Virus record (IMG/VR): IMGVR_UViG_3300046747_000672
Coordinates: 49,763-113,762 of that record
Source of the DNA: a virus
Strand: one strand, 5' to 3'
Length of the DNA: 64,000 bases
Shown here in pieces: positions 27,934-64,000 of the stretch (positions within the stretch are counted from its first letter, which is position 1; the number at the start of each line of letters is the position of its first letter). The position numbers and the translations under genes were made by a program. The notes under the pieces were generated by a model that searched no databases, was not told the DNA's origin, and worked only from the letters and a program-made list of their open reading frames with translations.

Positions 27934-28473
27934 ATGGCGAAACGAGTGCAAGCGATGGATCGTCCGAAACCAGAGCAACCGTTTATCGACGATCTGCACG
28001 AGTGGATTTATCGACGAATGGTCGAGATGGAGCGGATGGACCAGGCAGATAAGTCGGCCGTAGCCGACCCAGAGAAAACGGATTCTCCGCTCGAAGCAAT
28101 GATGTTCGACGCCCTGACCAGGTCAGGGTTCAGTCAATCGGACGAATCTGGTCGAGACGGGATCGCGAAACTCTTCCAACAGATTCCGGTCGACACGCCG
28201 TACGGCAGATATCGCGTGGACTTGGCGGCAAAGCGCCGATCGGGACCGTACGTCCTCAGGCTCGCAATCGAATGTGACGGATTTGCGTTTCACCACGCGA
28301 CGAAGGAGCAGGTTGAGTACGACGCCAAGAGAGACAGGGCGCTCTTGCGCGCCGGCTGGCGCGTCGCCCGTTACCCAGGCTCAGAGATTCACCGCGACCC
28401 AGGGGCGTGCGCGCTGGACGCCGCAGGCATTATCATCGACTGGCTTGATTCGGTTGCGAGGGTCAAAAAGTGA
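27934..28473 (+). CDS. DUF559-type PD-(D/E)XK endonuclease-like protein
   Basis: 179 residues from ATG at 27934. The C-terminal half has QIPVDTPYGRYRVDLAAKRR, LAIECDGFAFHHAT and RDRALLRAGWRVARYPGSEI, the Asp...(E/C)D/ExK-like pattern of very-short-patch/DUF559 nucleases (Glu-Cys-Asp core). It is the first gene of the replication module and may nick or trim DNA at or near the origin. Activity not shown. Confidence 0.7.
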   Translation: MAKRVQAMDRPKPEQPFIDDLHEWIYRRMVEMERMDQADKSAVADPEKTDSPLEAMMFDALTRSGFSQSDESGRDGIAKLFQQIPVDTPYGRYRVDLAAKRRSGPYVLRLAIECDGFAFHHATKEQVEYDAKRDRALLRAGWRVARYPGSEIHRDPGACALDAAGIIIDWLDSVARVKK

Positions 28474-29816
28474 TCGGCGCAGAGCGCATCGACCGCGTCC
28501 CAGAGTTGAAGCGGGCGCTCTCGGATGCGCGTCAGGTTTGCCGCGCCCTCGGTCTTGACAAGGGCGCGGAGCCGCAGCGCGGCGGCTACGTGATTTGCTG
28601 CCCGGTACACGGCGACCGGAACCCATCGTGCTCGGTCAGTCGCGGCGATGATGGGCTTGTGCGCGTCCATTGCTTCACGTGCGGATTCGCCGGCGACGTG
28701 CTGCACCTCATCGCCGCCGTAAGGGGCCTCGATCTGAGGCGGGGCTTTCCGGAGGTCATTGAGGAGGCCGTTCGTCTAGCGGGCCTGCCGGAACTTCTGG
28801 AAGAGCCGAGGGCGAAAACGGTGGACGCGAAGCGCACGTACCCGATGCCAAGCGAAATTGCGTCGGTGTGGCAGCGCGCGGTTCCAGTGACGGAGCACGC
28901 CGGCGCGACCGCCTGGCTCGCCTCGCGTGGACTGGACGCCGAGCGTCTTGCTGCAGCCGACGTGGCCCGCGCGATTCCGGACGGACTGAGCTTGCCGTGG
29001 TGGGCGAGTTGGAGAGGGAAGTCGTGGACCGAGCTTCGCCATCAACTACTGATACCCGTGTTCGATCACATGGGCGAAATGCGGAGCCTGCGCGCGGGCG
29101 AGCTTCGAGCAGTCGAAGGTAAACCCAAGCGGCTTCCTCCTGGCGGCCACCTGTCCAAGGGACTCGTGCTTGCAAACAAGTGCGCCCAAGCGCTGTTTGG
29201 GCACGGTGCCCACTACGACCTTCTCATCGTTGAAGGCGAGCCGGACTTCTTGACGTGGGCGACTGAGTCCGATCTGGCAGTCGTCGGCGTCGGGTCCGGG
29301 TGGTGGTCGCGCGCGCACGCGAAAAGAGTCCCCGCTGGCACGAAAGCGGTTCTTCGGACGCATCAAGACGAGGCCGGCGATCGGTATGCAAACGAAATCG
29401 GCTTTACGCTGGCGCGTCGCGCCACGCTGCGTCGCCCCGCGAAGGACGATCTTGGCGACGAGAACGACCGAGTGCGCGCGGACTCGCGCGCCAAGTTGTT
29501 CGCCGAAAACACGTTGCCGTACCACGCAGATTCAGTCGACCCGAAGTCGTTCTTTCTTGGTCGCTCGTTCGCCGAGCATTACTGGCTCGATGACGAACTA
29601 AAGCCTGGCGTCTTTGCCGCCAGGTGCCCCAATGAATCGTTTCACGAGTGGGGCGAGCGGTTCGATGGCGCGACGACGGTCCGCGCGCCAGAGCAGCGCC
29701 TGTGCGCGGGAGACGGGACATTCCATTGCGCCCATCCGTTTTGCCGGGCGGCTGCGATGAGCAGCACAGAAATTGATAGCGCGATGCGGCGGCTCGCCGC
29801 CACGGAGGAACACTGA
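28470..29816 (+). CDS. Phage DNA primase (CHC2 zinc finger, Toprim)
   Basis: 448 residues from GTG at 28470 (GTGA). The CHC2-type zinc finger has Cys 44, His 47 and Cys 68/71 (CCPVHGDRNPSCSV, then VHCFTCGFAGDVLHL). The Toprim core includes LLIVEGEPDFLTW (residues 251-263) and an RTHQDEAGD segment. The C-terminus has further Cys residues (CAGDGTFHCAHPFC). It synthesises RNA primers for phage replication; a fused helicase is absent and is encoded at 30670. Confidence 0.85.
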   Translation: MIGAERIDRVPELKRALSDARQVCRALGLDKGAEPQRGGYVICCPVHGDRNPSCSVSRGDDGLVRVHCFTCGFAGDVLHLIAAVRGLDLRRGFPEVIEEAVRLAGLPELLEEPRAKTVDAKRTYPMPSEIASVWQRAVPVTEHAGATAWLASRGLDAERLAAADVARAIPDGLSLPWWASWRGKSWTELRHQLLIPVFDHMGEMRSLRAGELRAVEGKPKRLPPGGHLSKGLVLANKCAQALFGHGAHYDLLIVEGEPDFLTWATESDLAVVGVGSGWWSRAHAKRVPAGTKAVLRTHQDEAGDRYANEIGFTLARRATLRRPAKDDLGDENDRVRADSRAKLFAENTLPYHADSVDPKSFFLGRSFAEHYWLDDELKPGVFAARCPNESFHEWGERFDGATTVRAPEQRLCAGDGTFHCAHPFCRAAAMSSTEIDSAMRRLAATEEH

Positions 29817-30673
29817 TGGCAGATTGGGCAGCACTCGACTTTCGGAAGCTCTACATGCCGTTCTCGGTCGAGTTCGAGCAGCTCCCGTACCTTGCTCGTG
29901 CCATCGGAGGCGACCTCATCCGTCGGTGCGATCGGCTCGGTCACATTGTCAAATGTGACGCACGTGACGGATGTGACGTCACGCTTGTCACGCGCATCAA
30001 GTTCCACTTGCGCGCACACGACGGCGAAGAACTCGCCATCGAGCAGGCGGTCAAGGCGCTACTGAAAGATGGCTACCTCATCATCAAGGATGGGTACCTA
30101 ACCATTCGCAATTACCCAGAAGCTCAGCGATCTCGCAGTGCCGACAGGATGGCAAAAAAGAGAGCCAGAAACACGCCTAGTCACAGTGACGCCAGTGACG
30201 TCACATCCGTAACAAGTGACGACGACGTCACTGTGACGTATAGAGGAGAGGAGAAAGAAGAGAAAGATCCCCCCATAGCCCCCCAGGGGGGCGGCGGGGA
30301 GATTTCAGCGAATCCGGAGCTCGCTCGCCGCGGGTATGCGGCTGGCGTTCGGGCGGTGACCAAGACCCAGTGGCACTTTCCGGACAAGCCGGAGGAACGG
30401 CGCGCGCTCAGCGACGTCGTCGCGCTGTACGCTCCGGGGCTTCGAGGTGACATGCTCGAAGCGAAGATGACCGCCATCGCATCGAACTACGCCGAAGCCA
30501 CCCGCGAGCGTGCGCAATTCGAGGGTGGCTTCAAGCCGAGCAAGTGCCTGGAGTGGTTCAACGCTGGCGCGCCAGGGGCCAAGACGTCGCTCCGCCGGAC
30601 GCCTGCATCGATGGCGAGCGCGCGAACGAACAAGGTCCAAGAAGAGCTTTTGAAGAACGCCGGGTCGCGATGA
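29816..30673 (+). CDS. Replication initiator/helicase loader-like protein
   Basis: 285 residues (TGATG junction). N-terminal 100 residues are helical with a winged-helix look (LYMPFSVEFEQLPYLARAIG, then LIRRCDRLGHIVKCD). A Ser/Asp/Val-rich low-complexity linker around residues 120-145 is encoded by a GTGAC repeat cluster, followed by a helical C-terminal domain typical of helicase loaders. The location between primase and helicase matches lambda O/DnaT-like proteins. Family identity is inferred from context. Confidence 0.6.
   Translation: MADWAALDFRKLYMPFSVEFEQLPYLARAIGGDLIRRCDRLGHIVKCDARDGCDVTLVTRIKFHLRAHDGEELAIEQAVKALLKDGYLIIKDGYLTIRNYPEAQRSRSADRMAKKRARNTPSHSDASDVTSVTSDDDVTVTYRGEEKEEKDPPIAPQGGGGEISANPELARRGYAAGVRAVTKTQWHFPDKPEERRALSDVVALYAPGLRGDMLEAKMTAIASNYAEATRERAQFEGGFKPSKCLEWFNAGAPGAKTSLRRTPASMASARTNKVQEELLKNAGSR
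29940..30291. other. Candidate replication origin: GTGAC iterons and purine tract
   Basis: Thirteen copies of GTGAC in either orientation lie in two clusters, six at 29940-29991 and seven at 30180-30237. Each cluster contains the perfect palindrome GTGACGTCAC (29973-29982 and 30195-30204). A hairpin GTCACATT/AATGTGAC sits at 29940-29959. A 26-base all-purine run (30242-30267) and a C6-A-G6 inverted repeat (30279-30291) follow. The origin inside the initiator gene parallels lambda O. Function is inferred. Confidence 0.55.
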
Positions 30674-32022
30674 CGCACGAGTTCGAGAACGGCGCAGATG
30701 AACCGCGCGGACCATCGCCGCGCGTCCCACCGCACAGCGCCGAGACGGAGAGCGCGGTGATTAGCGCTTGGTCGATGCACGACCGGTTTGGCAAGGCCTG
30801 GGCGCCAGAGCCGCAGCTATTCTACGTCAAAGCCCATCGACTGATTGTCGAGGCAATGGGGCGCATGGGCGCCGAGCAACGCGACGAGGCGTCGCTGCTG
30901 GCGCAAATGGATGCAGACGGAACGATGGATGCGGCTGGCGGTCGCGGAGCGATTCACCGAATCATCATGGGAGCTCCGGCGTATGGGGATCCGTGGCCGC
31001 ACGTGGGCCGTCTCCGCGAGTACAAGGCTCTTCGCGATGTCATCGGAACGCTCGAGGTTGCCGTAGCGGAAGCGTACGAGCACAAGAATTTGGGCGCCAC
31101 GGTGTCGAGAATTCAGGATGCGGCGCGCGCCGGTGTGCAAGAGATGGGGTCGAAAGTGCTATCTCCGCGCGACATGCTGCGGGCGGTCGCTGCGGAGATG
31201 ATGCTCCGGCGGGACCCGGAGATGTGCACAACGGGGCTTCCGACAATGGACGCTCACATGGGAGGCTTTCAGCACGAGCAGGTCACCATTTTCGGCGCGT
31301 CGACAAACTGGGGAAAGAGTTCGTATGCCGTACTCGTCTCCGACCTGGCCTTCAATGACAAAAAGCGGATCAAGCGCCCGCTGCTTGTGTCCTTTGAAGA
31401 CCCAGAGACGCTTTACGGGCGCCGCTTGACCGCGAGGCGCGCGGAGGTCAGTCCGAATTTGCTCCGCAACAACAAATACGAGCCTGGCATGCCGGAGTGG
31501 CGGCGCGTGCTCGGCGTGGCGGAGCACGCAGAAGACAATCCGTTCTTCATCAACGCAATCGGAAAGACGGTCGAACGTGCGGCAATGGAGATCAAGTGCA
31601 TGTGCGCTGCGGAGCAGTACGATCTCGTCATCATCGACTACCTTCAGGCCATACAGTCCGCTAAGCGTCACCAGGACAAGAGGAACGAGATCACTTACAT
31701 CGCGCGAACGCTGACCGATGTGATCAAAACCAGCAAGTGCGCCGGTCTGATGTTCTCCCAGTTCAGGCGGCCATTGAAAGAGGGCGAGAAGCCGACGATG
31801 CACATGCTGAAAGAATCTGGCGACCTGGAGAACGCTGCCGAGGTTGTCATGATCGGCTTCTTGGACAAGAACGGCACGCGCGTCATTCGCACCGAAAAGG
31901 TCAAAGACGGGATCAAGCACAAGGAGTATCTCGTCGGGTGGAATGATGTCACATGCGGGTTCACGGGCGAGATTGATGTCGTCAACGATCCGGAGCCTTT
32001 GATCGAGAGCGACTACCGATGA
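30670..32022 (+). CDS. DnaB-type replicative helicase
   Basis: 450 residues from ATG at 30670 (ATGA). N-terminal 150 residues are helical (DnaB N-terminal-like). The RecA core has a DnaB-style Walker A, GASTNWGKSS (209-218), Walker B YDLVIIDYLQ (317-326), SQFRR (363-367) and KESGDLENAAEVVM (381-394) with the arginine-finger side. It unwinds DNA at the phage fork, working with the primase two genes upstream. Confidence 0.88.
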   Translation: MTHEFENGADEPRGPSPRVPPHSAETESAVISAWSMHDRFGKAWAPEPQLFYVKAHRLIVEAMGRMGAEQRDEASLLAQMDADGTMDAAGGRGAIHRIIMGAPAYGDPWPHVGRLREYKALRDVIGTLEVAVAEAYEHKNLGATVSRIQDAARAGVQEMGSKVLSPRDMLRAVAAEMMLRRDPEMCTTGLPTMDAHMGGFQHEQVTIFGASTNWGKSSYAVLVSDLAFNDKKRIKRPLLVSFEDPETLYGRRLTARRAEVSPNLLRNNKYEPGMPEWRRVLGVAEHAEDNPFFINAIGKTVERAAMEIKCMCAAEQYDLVIIDYLQAIQSAKRHQDKRNEITYIARTLTDVIKTSKCAGLMFSQFRRPLKEGEKPTMHMLKESGDLENAAEVVMIGFLDKNGTRVIRTEKVKDGIKHKEYLVGWNDVTCGFTGEIDVVNDPEPLIESDYR

Positions 32023-32874: not shown

Positions 32875-33503
32875 TGTCGATGAAGTCACCCGAGCAATGG
32901 GAGCTCCTCGCAGGCACGCAGGACTTCGAGATGCTGCATCCGACGGAGCGGCGAAACGTGTACCTGCAAGAATTCATCGCAATGGTCCAGCAAGACGCCA
33001 TCGACGCGCACTCCCGCAGCGCGAAGGTCGCCGAGTTCCACGGCCTCGTGGGGCAGCCGGTGCTTGCGACGCCGCGGGCGCCGGCGAACAAGAGGGTGAG
33101 GCTGCGCCTGAAACTGCACTTGGAGGAAGCCGTCAAGGAGTGCTTCGAAGCTTGCCTCGACCTGCATGAGACCACGGCGGCGCCGTCTCATCGCGACGTG
33201 TTTCTGCGCGCCATCGGAGATCTGATGTGGATCGCCGCCGTCGCTCCCGTGCGCGTAGACCTGTCCGGTGCCGCCAAGGAGTTCGCGGACGCGGCCTACG
33301 TCGTCGAAGGGTCTTTCCTCGAATTCGGCATCGACGGCAACGAGGTGTTTGACGAGGTGCACCGTTCAAATCTCACGAAGGAAGGCAGCGACATGCGTGC
33401 CGATGGGAAGATCACGAAGGGGCCGAACTACCAACCGCCGGACATCGCTGGCGTGCTGAAACGACAGGGGTGGAATGGCAGCAACGAAGGAGAGACCAAA
33501 TGA
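32874..33503 (+). CDS. MazG-like nucleoside triphosphate pyrophosphohydrolase
   Basis: 209 residues (TGATG). A helical core has VAEFHGLVGQPV, LRLKLHLEEAVKECFE and GAAKEFADAAYVVEGSFLE, then FGIDGNEVFDEVHRSNLTKE, KITKGPNYQPPDI and VLKRQGWNG. These match the phosphoribosyl-ATP/MazG family metal-binding ExxE...ExxD pattern. It may trim the nucleotide pool or degrade alarmones such as (p)ppGpp. Substrate unknown. Confidence 0.75.
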   Translation: MSMKSPEQWELLAGTQDFEMLHPTERRNVYLQEFIAMVQQDAIDAHSRSAKVAEFHGLVGQPVLATPRAPANKRVRLRLKLHLEEAVKECFEACLDLHETTAAPSHRDVFLRAIGDLMWIAAVAPVRVDLSGAAKEFADAAYVVEGSFLEFGIDGNEVFDEVHRSNLTKEGSDMRADGKITKGPNYQPPDIAGVLKRQGWNGSNEGETK

Positions 33504-33955
33504 CCAAACCGAGAGGATTCGCCGCAATGTCACCCGAGCGCCAACGGGAGATCGCCGCCATCGGCGGCAAGAAGGCGCACGCGATCGGAAAGGCGCACAA
33601 GTTCACGCCGGACGCCGCGCGCGAAGCCGGACGCAAGGGCGGCAAGTTGATGGCGGCGCGCCCTGGCCACATGGCAAGTATCGGCCGAAAAGGCGGGATG
33701 GTGGTCGGTAAGGATCGAGAGCACATGGCAACAATCGGCAAGGCGGGAGGGCTCGCCATCGCGACCCAAGCACGAATGAGCGAGATTGGCAGGCTCGGCG
33801 GACTCGCGGTGTCGCGCGACAGGAAGCACATGAGCACGCTCGGGCGTTCCGGCGGCAAGGCAGCGTCACGGCACGCGCAGGAGCGACAGCGCGAGATGGA
33901 GGCGGCGATGGCGGCGGACGCGTCGCGGGAGCCGACGGAGAGGCAGGCGTCGTGA
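33500..33955 (+). CDS. KGG-repeat protein
   Basis: 151 residues from ATG at 33500 (ATGA). Six or more imperfect repeats carry a G(R/K)xGG core (AAIGGKKAHA, EAGRKGGKLMA, SIGRKGGMVVG, TIGKAGGLAIA, EIGRLGGLAVS, TLGRSGGKAAS), preceded by GFAAMSPERQREIA. This is the KGG/GsiB stress-protein repeat, expected to be disordered and basic. Role in phage may be protection or DNA condensation, unproven. Confidence 0.75.
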   Translation: MTKPRGFAAMSPERQREIAAIGGKKAHAIGKAHKFTPDAAREAGRKGGKLMAARPGHMASIGRKGGMVVGKDREHMATIGKAGGLAIATQARMSEIGRLGGLAVSRDRKHMSTLGRSGGKAASRHAQERQREMEAAMAADASREPTERQAS

Positions 33956-49717: not shown

Positions 49718-50148
49718 GAAACGTCTGTATCGAGGTCCCTCTCGGCAGCACGTCGCCAGCGGCTGCGTCCACGGCAGCAGGATTGTCTGCCGGCGGGTTT
49801 TCGAAATGGCGCCAGCTCGCGTTCGTCGCAACCGTTACGGGCGCTACAGGCGGAGCGCTGGACGTCTACGTGCAGCACTCGCCGGACGGCGTGACCTGGT
49901 ACGACTACATCCACTTCACGCAGGCGGCGGCTGCTGCCTCCGCGGTGACCTACTTCTATTCGCCGACGGTCGACAACGACAGCATCGTCGCGATCGGAAA
50001 AAACACGACACCGGCGCTCGCCGCCAACACGGCGGTCGGCGGCCCGTGGTTTGACCAGCTCCGTGTGCTCTACGTCGCGGGCGCGTCAACGAGCGCGGGG
50101 GCGGCGCAGGTCGTCAACGTGCTTTGCGGCATGCCGGAGCAAGGATGA
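49714..50148 (+). CDS. Putative head decoration protein
   Basis: 144 residues from GTG at 49714 (GTGA). Beta-rich with alternating Ala/Val/Thr, including QHSPDGVTWYDYIHFTQAAA. The segment resembles one in the protein at 53292 (QVSDDNSTWYNLAGDA), so the two may be related decoration or spike proteins. Surface location is inferred. Confidence 0.6.
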   Translation: MRNVCIEVPLGSTSPAAASTAAGLSAGGFSKWRQLAFVATVTGATGGALDVYVQHSPDGVTWYDYIHFTQAAAAASAVTYFYSPTVDNDSIVAIGKNTTPALAANTAVGGPWFDQLRVLYVAGASTSAGAAQVVNVLCGMPEQG

Positions 50149-60157: not shown

Positions 60158-62353
60158 TTGGCCTCGCCGATCGAGATTCTCTTTCATTCCAACGCCGATG
60201 AGGTGAAGGCGCAGGTCCTCGGCCTCATCCCGGTGTTCGATCGGTTCGCGAGGTCGGCCGTTGCATCGGTCGACAACTCGACGCGACAGCGCGTGCGAGC
60301 GGAGCGGTCCGCGGCGGATCAGACGGCGAAAGAAGCGACGCGCGCCGAGAAGGAAAAGGAGCGCGCGACCAAGACGTCGCAGCGGGAGATCGATAAGGTC
60401 CTTCGCGAGTCGAATCGCCTTCGCAACGCGATGAACTCGGTCGAGGTCCGCGACTGGCAGCAGAAGGAGCGCTCGCGTGTCCGCGCGTCCGAGCAGGCGT
60501 CGCGCGACATCGAATCGTCGCGAAAGCGCATGTCTGAAGGCTTCGGTCGCCAGATGGGCGGCGCCTTCGGTCGCGTGATGAACACCGCGAGTCACGTGGC
60601 CGGAATTGCGACGGCCCTCGGTGGCGGGTTCACGATCGCCGACGCGCTCAGTTCTGGCGTGAAGGAAGAGGCTACCGCCGGGCAGATCGTCCGCAGCGCC
60701 CAGGACAAGGGAGGCATCTCTAGCGCCGACTTGCAGACGAAGGCGCGCGCCGTCGCCATTGGCAATGGCGGCAGAACCGAGGACGTTCTGCGAGGCGCCG
60801 ACGCCTTCGTCCAGAAGACTGGCAGCCTGAAGGCTGCTGTCGATCTCCTAGACGAGCTCGGGCTCGAGGCGGCGTCCTCTGGGGCCAAGCTTGAGGACCT
60901 CGGAAGTACGGCGGCGGAGGTCTTCTCGTCGGTCGGCACGGCCGCGGGCACGACCGACGTCATGCGAATGCTCATCGGTCAGGGCAAGGCAGGCGCGGTC
61001 GACATCCGCAACCTTGCTCAGTACGGAGCAAGGCTCAGTTCGACGGCAGGCCTATTCGAGGGCGGGGTAGGCGAGAACATCAAGAGCTTTGGCGCTTTGT
61101 CGCAGGTCGCCAAGGCGAAGGGTGGGGCCACGGATGCAGCAGAGGCAACCGAGGCTGCGGCGCGACTGTTCGCCGAAATCGCGCAACACAAGGACGACTT
61201 CGAAGCTGCCAACATCAAGGTGAAGGGCGCTGGCGGAAAGCTACGAAACATACAGGACATTCTGCTCGACACTCTGGTCGCCAACAAGGGTGACATCACC
61301 ACGATCCCGAAACTGTTCGGGCGGCAGGCCGGCAAGGTCGAGATCGGACTTGCCCAGGCATTCCTGGAGGGCTCTGGCGGCAAGACGGACAAAACCTCGC
61401 TCGCAGCGGGACGGGCAAGCGCGGCATCTCTCATCGAGAGCTACCAGCGGCCGGTGTCGCAAGGCGAGCTCGAGTCCGATCGCAAGTCGCGGCTCGCAGA
61501 GAACGAGGCGAAGCTCAATCAGGCGACCGAGCAACTGCACCAAGCGCTGAACGAGCGCCTTCTCCCAAAGCTGCCAGAACTGATCGACAAGTTCACGCAG
61601 CTCATCCCTGCGATGCAGAGCGCAGTCGATTTCTTTGTCGGCGGCAGTGTGTGGGAAGGGGTTGGCAAGGCGGTCGGCGTTGCGCTTGTCGCGGAGATTG
61701 TGAAGGCCGGGACGGCCAAGCTCGTCTCGTCTGCGTTCACCGGACTGGCCAGCCTGATTCTCAAATCCGTCAGCGGGACGGCTGTCGCGAACATTGCTGC
61801 CGGCGTCGTGAACGTTACGAGCGGTGTCGGTGGTCCAGGTGGCGTCCTGGACTCTGCTGGAAAGCTTGCTCGCGTGGTCGCGCCAGCGGGCGCGGGTCTC
61901 GGCGGCCTTGCGCTCGCCGGAACATTCGCAGCGGCGGGCGCTGTCGATGCGGGCATCTTGATGGCCGCCAAGGCAGACGAGAAGAAGGGCCAGAAGGCAT
62001 TTACGGACCTCATGGCGATGCCGACCAACACACCAGAGGAGAAGCGGTCGAAGCTGGATCGCTTGCAATCGATCTCAGGCTCAGTCCAAGCAGACCTGGC
62101 TCCCGTGCAGAAGAGCTACTACGGAATGGGCCAGTATGGCGGCGCTGTGTCCGCGCCAGAAAAGGGGCTCGACCTCGAGAAAGAGGCGTTCCGAAAGAAT
62201 CTCAGCGCGATCAACGCCGAGATCGAGATGCTCAAGGCCGCCCTGTCGGGCGCCGGACCTGCGGTGACAGCTTTCGCCGATTCGATGAAGCCAGCCGGTG
62301 GCCCCGCCGAGCCGGCCGGCATCCCGCCGAGTCGCTGGGGCACTGATCACTGA
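60158..62353 (+). CDS. Tape measure protein
   Basis: 731 residues from TTG at 60158 with AGGGA before it. Long charged coiled-coil N-terminus (TRAEKEKERATKTSQREIDK), Gly/Ala-rich middle helices and hydrophobic stretches (AVGVALVAEIVKAGTAKLVS, then ILKSVSGTAVANIAAGVVNV) as in tail tape measures. Length sets tail length; at about 1.5 angstroms per residue this suggests a tail near 110 nm. Confidence 0.85.
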   Translation: MASPIEILFHSNADEVKAQVLGLIPVFDRFARSAVASVDNSTRQRVRAERSAADQTAKEATRAEKEKERATKTSQREIDKVLRESNRLRNAMNSVEVRDWQQKERSRVRASEQASRDIESSRKRMSEGFGRQMGGAFGRVMNTASHVAGIATALGGGFTIADALSSGVKEEATAGQIVRSAQDKGGISSADLQTKARAVAIGNGGRTEDVLRGADAFVQKTGSLKAAVDLLDELGLEAASSGAKLEDLGSTAAEVFSSVGTAAGTTDVMRMLIGQGKAGAVDIRNLAQYGARLSSTAGLFEGGVGENIKSFGALSQVAKAKGGATDAAEATEAAARLFAEIAQHKDDFEAANIKVKGAGGKLRNIQDILLDTLVANKGDITTIPKLFGRQAGKVEIGLAQAFLEGSGGKTDKTSLAAGRASAASLIESYQRPVSQGELESDRKSRLAENEAKLNQATEQLHQALNERLLPKLPELIDKFTQLIPAMQSAVDFFVGGSVWEGVGKAVGVALVAEIVKAGTAKLVSSAFTGLASLILKSVSGTAVANIAAGVVNVTSGVGGPGGVLDSAGKLARVVAPAGAGLGGLALAGTFAAAGAVDAGILMAAKADEKKGQKAFTDLMAMPTNTPEEKRSKLDRLQSISGSVQADLAPVQKSYYGMGQYGGAVSAPEKGLDLEKEAFRKNLSAINAEIEMLKAALSGAGPAVTAFADSMKPAGGPAEPAGIPPSRWGTDH

Positions 62354-62356
62354 CCG

Positions 62357-63253
62357 ATGGCAACCCTCGACGTCCTCTCCACCCTCCAGCCGCCCTCGTG
62401 GCGCGGCATCCCGTTCCCGCTCACGTCGTTGCACAACGGCTTCACGCACGACCACGTCGAGCACAAGTTCCTCTACCAATCTGGCGCGTACATCGAGGCG
62501 ACGGGGCGCAACGCGCTGAACTTCCAGGCGCGCATTCCGTTTTGCAACGGTGTCGAAGCAGCGTCGTTCGAATCGTGGGCAGGGCAAGTACTCTACCCGG
62601 ACCTCTTCAATCGATTCCTGCAAGCGGTGCTCGATGAGACATCGGGCGAGTTCGTTCACCCGAACTTCGGCACGCTCACCTGCAAAGCGCGCGACGTCGA
62701 CTGGGACATCGCCGGCAACGGGCCGCGCGACGGCGCGATCCTGTCGTGCCGCTTCTACCATTCGAACGACGACAAGGATTCGCTTTCCGATACGCTGACG
62801 ACGCAGTCGCCGATGGCGCGCGCGTCGTCGAGCGCCGCGGTCCTGGACGACCAGCTCGCAGCGACGGGCCCGCTGCCTGAATTGTCGAACGACAAGAAGT
62901 CCTTCGGCGAGCTCGTGGCCGACGTCGGCGACGGCACAGGCAACGTGGGCCGTATCACCTCGAAGCTCGACAACACGGACGCGGCACTTCAGCGGCGCGA
63001 TTCCGTCGGCGACTGGCCGCTCCGTGGCGCCGTCGAAGACATGCGCGCCGCCGTGTTCGACCTTCAATCGTTCAACGGCGTCGGCGCGCAGCGAACACGC
63101 GAGACGACCGTGTCGTGGGGCACGACGCTGCCCGTGCTCGGCATCCGCCTCGGCGTGCGCACGCAAGACCTCGTCGAGATGAACCCGAGCCTGGCGCGAA
63201 GCCCGCTCGTCCCTGCCGGCGTCCGCGTGCGGTACCCGTTCGGGGCGCGGTAG
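62357..63253 (+). CDS. DNA-circulation N-domain and LysM-type protein
   Basis: 298 residues from ATG at 62357. The N-terminal 120 residues (WRGIPFPLTSLHNGFTHDHV, RNALNFQARIPF, then YPDLFNRFLQAVLDETSGEF) match the Mu gpN-like DNA-circulation domain. A C-terminal segment (TTVSWGTTLPVLGIRLGVRT then DLVEMNPSLARSPLVPAGV) is LysM-like and may bind peptidoglycan. It belongs to the tail hub. Confidence 0.78.
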   Translation: MATLDVLSTLQPPSWRGIPFPLTSLHNGFTHDHVEHKFLYQSGAYIEATGRNALNFQARIPFCNGVEAASFESWAGQVLYPDLFNRFLQAVLDETSGEFVHPNFGTLTCKARDVDWDIAGNGPRDGAILSCRFYHSNDDKDSLSDTLTTQSPMARASSSAAVLDDQLAATGPLPELSNDKKSFGELVADVGDGTGNVGRITSKLDNTDAALQRRDSVGDWPLRGAVEDMRAAVFDLQSFNGVGAQRTRETTVSWGTTLPVLGIRLGVRTQDLVEMNPSLARSPLVPAGVRVRYPFGAR

Positions 63254-63256
63254 AGA

Positions 63257-64000
63257 ATGCCGTTCGGCGTTGTCACAGCGCCCGCTGCCGCGGGTGCGCC
63301 GAGCGCGTACGGCGCCATCTCGGTTCAGATCGGAAGCGTCGTTCTCACATCGTTTCGGAGCTTCCGCTTCACGCAGCACTTTCTCACGCCGACCGACTCG
63401 TTCTCGTTCGAGCTGTCGACGGACGTCATGACCGACGAGGTCCTTGACGCCGTCTTCACCCCTGGCGTGAAGGTTTCGATCTTTATCGACGATGCGAAGC
63501 AGTTCACCGGGTACATCGACGTCGTCGACACGTCGAACGCGGGCCGGCACGAGGGGAGCTCGATCACGATCGAAGGACGCGACGCGATGTCGCCCGTCAT
63601 CGACTCGCAGATCGACCCCGACCACCACTACCCGGACAATACGCCGCTCGACAAGTTGCTGCGCGACACGCTCGCGCCGTGGTTCGAGAAATTCGACATC
63701 ACGAACGAGGCGAACATCGACGTCGCCGCGGGGAAGGCGGCTCGCGCGAAGCTGAAGCGTCGCACGAAGCGAAAGACCAAGGCCCTCAGCCAGTACCCGA
63801 TTCCGAAGAGCAAGCCCGAGCACAACGACAGCTTCTTCGTGTTCCTGTCGCGCATCACGCAGCGCTACGGACTCTGGATCTGGCCGAGCGTCGACGGCGA
63901 TACGGCGATCGTCGGCAAGCCCAACTTCGATCAGGAGCCTTGCTGCCAACTACGGCGGCGACGGCAGCAGACGGTCGCAGGATTCGGCCGAGCGATGGGC
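63257..64000 (+). CDS. Baseplate hub protein (Mu gpP/late control D-like), truncated by window
   Basis: At least 248 residues from ATG at 63257, open to the right edge. Beta-rich gp27-type hub domain with FTQHFLTPTDSFSFELSTDV, VSIFIDDAKQFTGYIDVVDT and later LSRITQRYGLWIWPS. It should form the trimeric hub at the tail tip that carries the spike. Confidence 0.8.
   Translation, partial: MPFGVVTAPAAAGAPSAYGAISVQIGSVVLTSFRSFRFTQHFLTPTDSFSFELSTDVMTDEVLDAVFTPGVKVSIFIDDAKQFTGYIDVVDTSNAGRHEGSSITIEGRDAMSPVIDSQIDPDHHYPDNTPLDKLLRDTLAPWFEKFDITNEANIDVAAGKAARAKLKRRTKRKTKALSQYPIPKSKPEHNDSFFVFLSRITQRYGLWIWPSVDGDTAIVGKPNFDQEPCCQLRRRRQQTVAGFGRAMG

Follow-up and report, generated by a model that had tools for sequence, protein, structure and literature searches.

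A candidate replication origin of palindromic GTGAC blocks inside the gene of a putative phage initiator

To our knowledge, replication origins have rarely been located in uncultured phages. The locus described here raises the question of whether short repeats lying inside a coding sequence may mark such an origin, and whether the protein encoded there would be the one that reads them. The window analysed is a 64-kb stretch of DNA, positions 49763–113762 of a virus record of 113,762 bases. A gene survey of the record found terminase, portal, head protein, contractile-tail sheath and exonuclease VIII genes. The record contains no exact end repeat. Its two ends (1–1735 and 112028–113762, the latter being 62266–64000 of the window) share an overlap of 1,735 bp with an identity of 94.5%, and the genome, of ∼112.0 kb, is therefore probably complete and either circular or terminally redundant, with strain variation at the join.

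The repeats lie in an open reading frame on the plus strand (29816–30673; ATG at 29816, TGA at 30671–30673) whose 285-residue product is a candidate replication initiator, as judged from an AlphaFold2 model and two relatives (L103 and L104). A preliminary description of this DNA had counted 13 GTGAC/GTCAC words in two clusters about 190 bases apart, and this was confirmed to the base: the words span 29940–30237 and the gap between the clusters is 188 bases. Cluster A (29940–29991) holds six words, spaced 15-9-9-5-9, where the gene encodes a predicted winged helix. Cluster B (30180–30237) holds seven words and one GTAAC, and is bordered by the inverted repeat GTCACAGTGACG / CGTCACTGTGAC (single-strand fold z = −4.2). 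The palindrome GTGACGTCAC, also reported for each cluster, was found at 29973–29982 in A and at 30195–30204 in B. In each cluster the words are ordered once into a palindromic block of 28 bp, GTGAC-N4-GTGACGTCAC-N4-GTMAC, which takes the form GTGAC-N4-GTGACGTCAC-N4-GTCAC in A (29964–29991) and GTGAC-N4-GTGACGTCAC-N4-GTAAC in B (30186–30213).

GTGAC is not enriched over the window as a whole (133 observed, 152 expected), and yet it is the window's most clustered 5-mer class. Its density reaches 13 per 300 nt at the two clusters and is ≤ 4 elsewhere in the 113.8-kb record, which has no second GTGAC cluster. We then held the protein sequence fixed and resampled codons 20,000 times from the phage's own codon usage. 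The whole gene contains 15 words, as compared with 6.6 ± 1.4 after resampling (maximum 12), and no run reached 15. The six words of cluster A compare with 2.0 expected and were never reached, while the seven words of cluster B compare with 3.4 and were reached in 4 of the 20,000 runs. When synonymous codons were permuted within the gene, the observed word count was reached in none of 5000 permutations. The clustering of GTGAC thus exceeds both chance and coding constraint.

The gene order is as had been proposed, with the initiator-like gene lying between a primase and a helicase gene. Upstream is a DnaG-like primase (28470–29816, plus strand) with a CHC2 zinc ribbon and a weak Toprim match, whose TGA (29814–29816) overlaps the initiator ATG. 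Directly downstream is a DnaB-like replicative helicase (30670–32022, plus strand; Pfam DnaB_C 1.1e-28, phrog_19 1.9e-40), whose ATG at 30670 overlaps the initiator TGA. The primase-initiator-dnaB set, which spans 28470–32022, is therefore joined by stop/start overlaps throughout. No dedicated helicase loader was recognized among the neighbouring genes scanned. Because the record has no match to DNA polymerases of families A, B or C (PolA, PolB, PolC), the phage probably uses a host polymerase for replication. Two further genes were seen nearby: one with an MTES_1575/DUF559 endonuclease fold (27934–28473), which lies in the replication gene set and runs into the beginning of the primase gene, and one (33470–33955) whose small product carries two KGG motifs (stress-induced acidophilic repeat).

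The sequence immediately 3′ of cluster B is also distinctive. The 26-base all-purine tract noted earlier is present on the plus strand at 30242–30267 and is the longest purine run in the 113.8-kb record; we propose that it serves as an element for unwinding or single-strand handling. It is followed by a potential hairpin or G-rich structure (30269–30302; DNA fold z = −2.7), which is made up of a C6 run (30269–30274), the C6-A-G6 repeat already reported (30279–30291) and a G-rich tail. The AT content beside cluster B, ∼50% as compared with a genome average of 35%, is raised without being strongly AT-rich. The preliminary description had suggested GC skew as a check. The skew minimum falls at ∼17.8 kb, 12 kb from the GTGAC clusters, where gene direction flips; since skew here follows gene direction, it is uninformative about the origin.

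What kind of protein might read these words? An AlphaFold2 model, built on an alignment of eight rows, predicts a winged helix at approximately residues 25–98 (pLDDT mostly 74–87), composed of a helix (25–37), a strand (43–46), two further helices (54–65 and 72–85) and the two strands of the wing (88–91 and 94–97). A long helix (100–119) and a disordered linker (∼123–190) are predicted to follow, and the C-terminal part is predicted to be helical with poor fold confidence. Cluster A encodes residues 42–60, running from β-strand 1 to helix 2 of the predicted winged helix, and cluster B encodes residues 122–141, in the linker. The earlier statement that the repeat-rich part of the gene encodes a low-complexity linker is therefore half right, in that it holds for B and fails for A. 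Among viral models the fold gave weak matches that include replisome organisers, Lin1244/Lin1753-like and DUF1376 proteins and a protein annotated as replication initiator. There was no match in an alignment-based sequence search of the PDB, none in a PDB fold search at E ≤ 0.001, and neither a PHROG match nor a useful Pfam match for the protein itself.

A search for protein relatives in the phylum to which a Myxococcaceae MAG belongs, covering 195 genomes, gave only two credible matches, both distant and both in Myxococcota genomes (L103 and L104). The N-terminal domain alone, with the linker removed, matches both. The L104 protein in turn matches phrog_1408 (replication initiation, 1.4e-5), and a DnaB-like gene follows its gene. 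Absence of the repeats from close relatives that still replicate had been named in advance as one ground for rejecting the origin, and the outcome favoured the origin: both genes keep arrays of GTSAC in the same linker, with most copies 10 bp apart. In L103 there are seven copies, with a purine-rich tract after them, and in L104 ten at an exact 10-bp spacing. Because of this spacing the L104 words rotate through all three codon phases, which indicates that it is the DNA word, and not a peptide, that has been kept. Short peptide patterns revealed no close relatives in IMG/VR and 84,980 genomes, and tblastn of the initiator against phage records gave no match. Several candidates were set aside as spurious: L105 and L106 are weak matches that lack a GTNAC cluster, and L107 and L126–L128 are what we take to be unrelated proteins, namely a glycosyltransferase, an antitoxin, a transposase and a methyltransferase.

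We also searched for the block by DNA alone. In IMG/VR, the strict GTGAC form was found in three other contigs, each time within an initiator-like gene. The general GTNAC form was found in 24 contigs, with 14 of the matches inside initiator-like ORFs (L005, L006, L007, L010, L014, L016, L018, L021, L022, L023, L024, L025, L026 and L028), or ∼11 after near-identical pairs are merged. Ten of the 14 have PHROG replication-family matches of their own. L018 and L026 are near-identical to members that have such matches, and L005 and L007 have none; the L005 gene directly precedes a DnaB gene. Most of the phages are consistent in word type, using either GTSAC or GTWAC, and the positions of linker and block recur among them. 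L005, L014 and L018 resemble the window gene in having further words where the winged helix is encoded. GTNAC words are clustered in the linker-coding part of the initiator-like genes of the window phage, L103, L104, L005, L006, L010, L014, L016, L021–L025, L028 and L108. One other GTNAC-dense site (L012:177–204), with seven flanking words beside the block, lies outside any evident initiator ORF and is possibly an intergenic origin or operator.

Features 3′ of the iterons recur less regularly, and the purine tract and C/G runs are present in some members of the class, not in all. Seventeen genes were compared. In 10 of them the linker iterons have on their 3′ side a purine-rich stretch that ranks in the top quarter for its gene, and across the 17 genes C5/G5 runs are 3.7-fold denser 3′ of the iterons than elsewhere, on small numbers. 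A C6-x-G6 hairpin directly 3′ of the iterons was observed in the window phage and in L021, where it follows the linker cluster, and C5/C6 runs after the iterons were observed in L016 and L022 as well.

These searches also set bounds on how general the word is. When initiators were chosen by PHROG family regardless of their DNA, only 1 of ∼36 (L108) carried a GTNAC cluster; we therefore reject the idea that GTNAC is general to phage initiators, and regard it as marking one class. In genome contigs, GTNACN4GTGACGTCACN4GTNAC gave nine matches, nearly all unrelated to replication. A control word of the same composition, TGNCA, gave 23 contigs in the block search and had to be abandoned as a null because several of these proved to be initiator genes with TGNCA words (L029, L031 and L045, and L037 by resemblance). 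With AGNCT as a further control there were two contigs, and in neither was an initiator evident; the CTAG formed at the AGNCT joint is generally rare in bacteria. An automatic count of an AER-R-R signature (6/24 versus 0/23) was discarded as too strict, since evident cases were missed.

The TGNCA words merit description in their own right. L029, L031, L037, L038 and L045 carry them with the same 9-5-9 geometry, as a different iteron word in an unchanged layout, and those of L029, L031 and L045 sit in genes with PHROG replication-initiation matches. Among gammaproteobacterial initiators of PHROG 270, TGNCA is the top over-represented gapped palindromic pentamer in L070, L072, L075, L079 and L082 (z 2.3–4.0).

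Repeats within a gene could have origins other than replication. They might merely mirror a low-complexity protein segment, with its DVT, SVT and SD repeats, and have no role as DNA: the segment encoded by cluster B does belong to a disordered linker, and the relatives contain recurring DVT/NVT peptides. We regard this as very improbable, because it is contradicted by both the codon resampling and the synonymous permutation, because the words occur in both orientations and in several codon phases (all three in L104), and because cluster A encodes a predicted folded domain. An operator is a more serious alternative, in which the 29816 protein or another regulator would control the primase-initiator-dnaB operon from these sites and the origin would lie elsewhere. 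The palindromic words would be fitting targets for a dimeric winged-helix regulator, the genes around them probably form an operon, and anti-repressor and HTH genes are nearby. However, two multi-copy clusters 120–420 bp into a coding sequence would be unusual for an operator, arrays of up to ten copies at 10-bp spacing resemble iterons, the same block is found in unrelated genes with replication-family matches, and the record has no similar cluster elsewhere. We consider an operator unlikely.

The words might instead belong to an origin, or to a recombination or packaging element, recognized by some other phage or host protein and not by the 29816 product, since sequence data leave the identity of the binding protein free. 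Against this, the words travel with, and sit inside, winged-helix initiator genes of diverse phages, and the terminase gene is ∼16 kb away; we think such an arrangement quite unlikely. The repeats, the gene order, the fold prediction, the relatives and the DNA-only search all support a candidate origin within the initiator-like gene, as first proposed. The lack of a DNA polymerase match in the record is also what recruitment of the host replisome would lead one to expect. Our preferred reading, which we hold to be likely, is that the region is a phage replication origin inside the gene of its own initiator and is read by that protein. Several observations weigh against it: the protein itself has no PHROG or useful Pfam match, most initiators chosen by PHROG family lack GTNAC clusters, the AT content beside cluster B is only modestly raised, no loader was recognized among the neighbouring genes scanned, the GC-skew minimum is 12 kb distant, and the C-terminal fold is poorly predicted.

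By analogy with lambda O and SPP1 oriL, from which we infer the steps of binding, melting and helicase loading, such an origin might work as follows. The winged-helix domain of the 29816 protein would bind GTGAC half-sites, with dimers occupying the palindromic blocks. Protein oligomers, connected by way of the flexible linker, would gather the two clusters, ∼190 bp apart, and the resulting looping would strain the adjoining DNA on the 3′ side of cluster B, which is rich in purines and lower in GC, and so open it. Recruitment of the phage DnaB encoded just downstream would then fall to the C-terminal part of the protein, or to a loader that we did not recognize, after which the phage primase would prime synthesis and a host polymerase would elongate.

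For an origin inside the gene of its initiator there is precedent in lambda O and SPP1 gene 38. Lambda DNA is synthesized by the host polymerase, as is probable for the window phage. The lambda origin lies in the middle of gene O and consists of iterons followed by an AT-rich tract, and the likeness drawn in the preliminary description holds as an analogy (PMC7466680). Like lambda and its Stx-phage relatives, the window phage carries its iterons midway through the initiator-like gene, with a candidate unwinding region of distinct base composition after them. Unlike lambda, it has 5-bp words arranged in 28-bp palindromic blocks and in two clusters, one of them inside the winged-helix-coding part; the flank is purine-rich and not strongly AT-rich; and the phage encodes its own DnaB and primase, with no P-type loader recognized. 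Its protein does not match the phage O-like PHROG models.

SPP1 uses the replisome organiser gp38, the loader gp39 and the DnaB-type helicase gp40. Its oriL, in gene 38, combines direct repeats within the organiser gene with a DUE, in a phage that encodes its own DnaB (PMC6316719). The window phage resembles SPP1 in having repeats inside the initiator or organiser gene and a phage-encoded DnaB. It differs in that no separate loader was found among the neighbouring genes scanned and no second GTGAC cluster in the record, and in the phage-encoded primase that adjoins the initiator. Phage proteins of the PHROG replication-initiation and primosomal families phrog_1408, 3992, 9474 and 270, and those with Lin1244, DUF1376 and replisome-organiser folds, are similar in having a winged helix, a disordered linker and a basic segment of A(D/E)R-x-R type, whereas the window protein reaches none of these four PHROG models and is linked to them through its relative L104.

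What is new here is the short-word, palindromic-block form and the placing of one cluster within the code of the DNA-binding domain itself; so too, as far as sequence comparison indicates, is the finding that unrelated phages share this block in their initiator genes. We found no description of this shared geometry in the literature searched, most subscription papers being outside its reach. We suggest tentatively, and with more doubt than confidence, that winged-helix initiators of a broad class, found in phages that are unrelated, read one common geometry of 28 bp (a half-site, a step of 9 bp to a half-site abutting its inverse, and a further step of 9 bp to a last half-site), with specificity residing in the 5-bp half-site, whose proposed variants are GTSAC and GTWAC, and TGNCA in other phages.

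Should these initiators indeed read the block, one simple pattern in the DNA would be enough to locate both the origin and the initiator gene, even where no protein model recognizes the initiator, as in the window phage. If the common-geometry reading is also true, origins and otherwise unannotatable initiators would be findable from DNA alone. Such phages would further provide natural pairs of initiator and half-site with which to study site selection by a small winged helix, under the constraint that the site must also encode the same protein.
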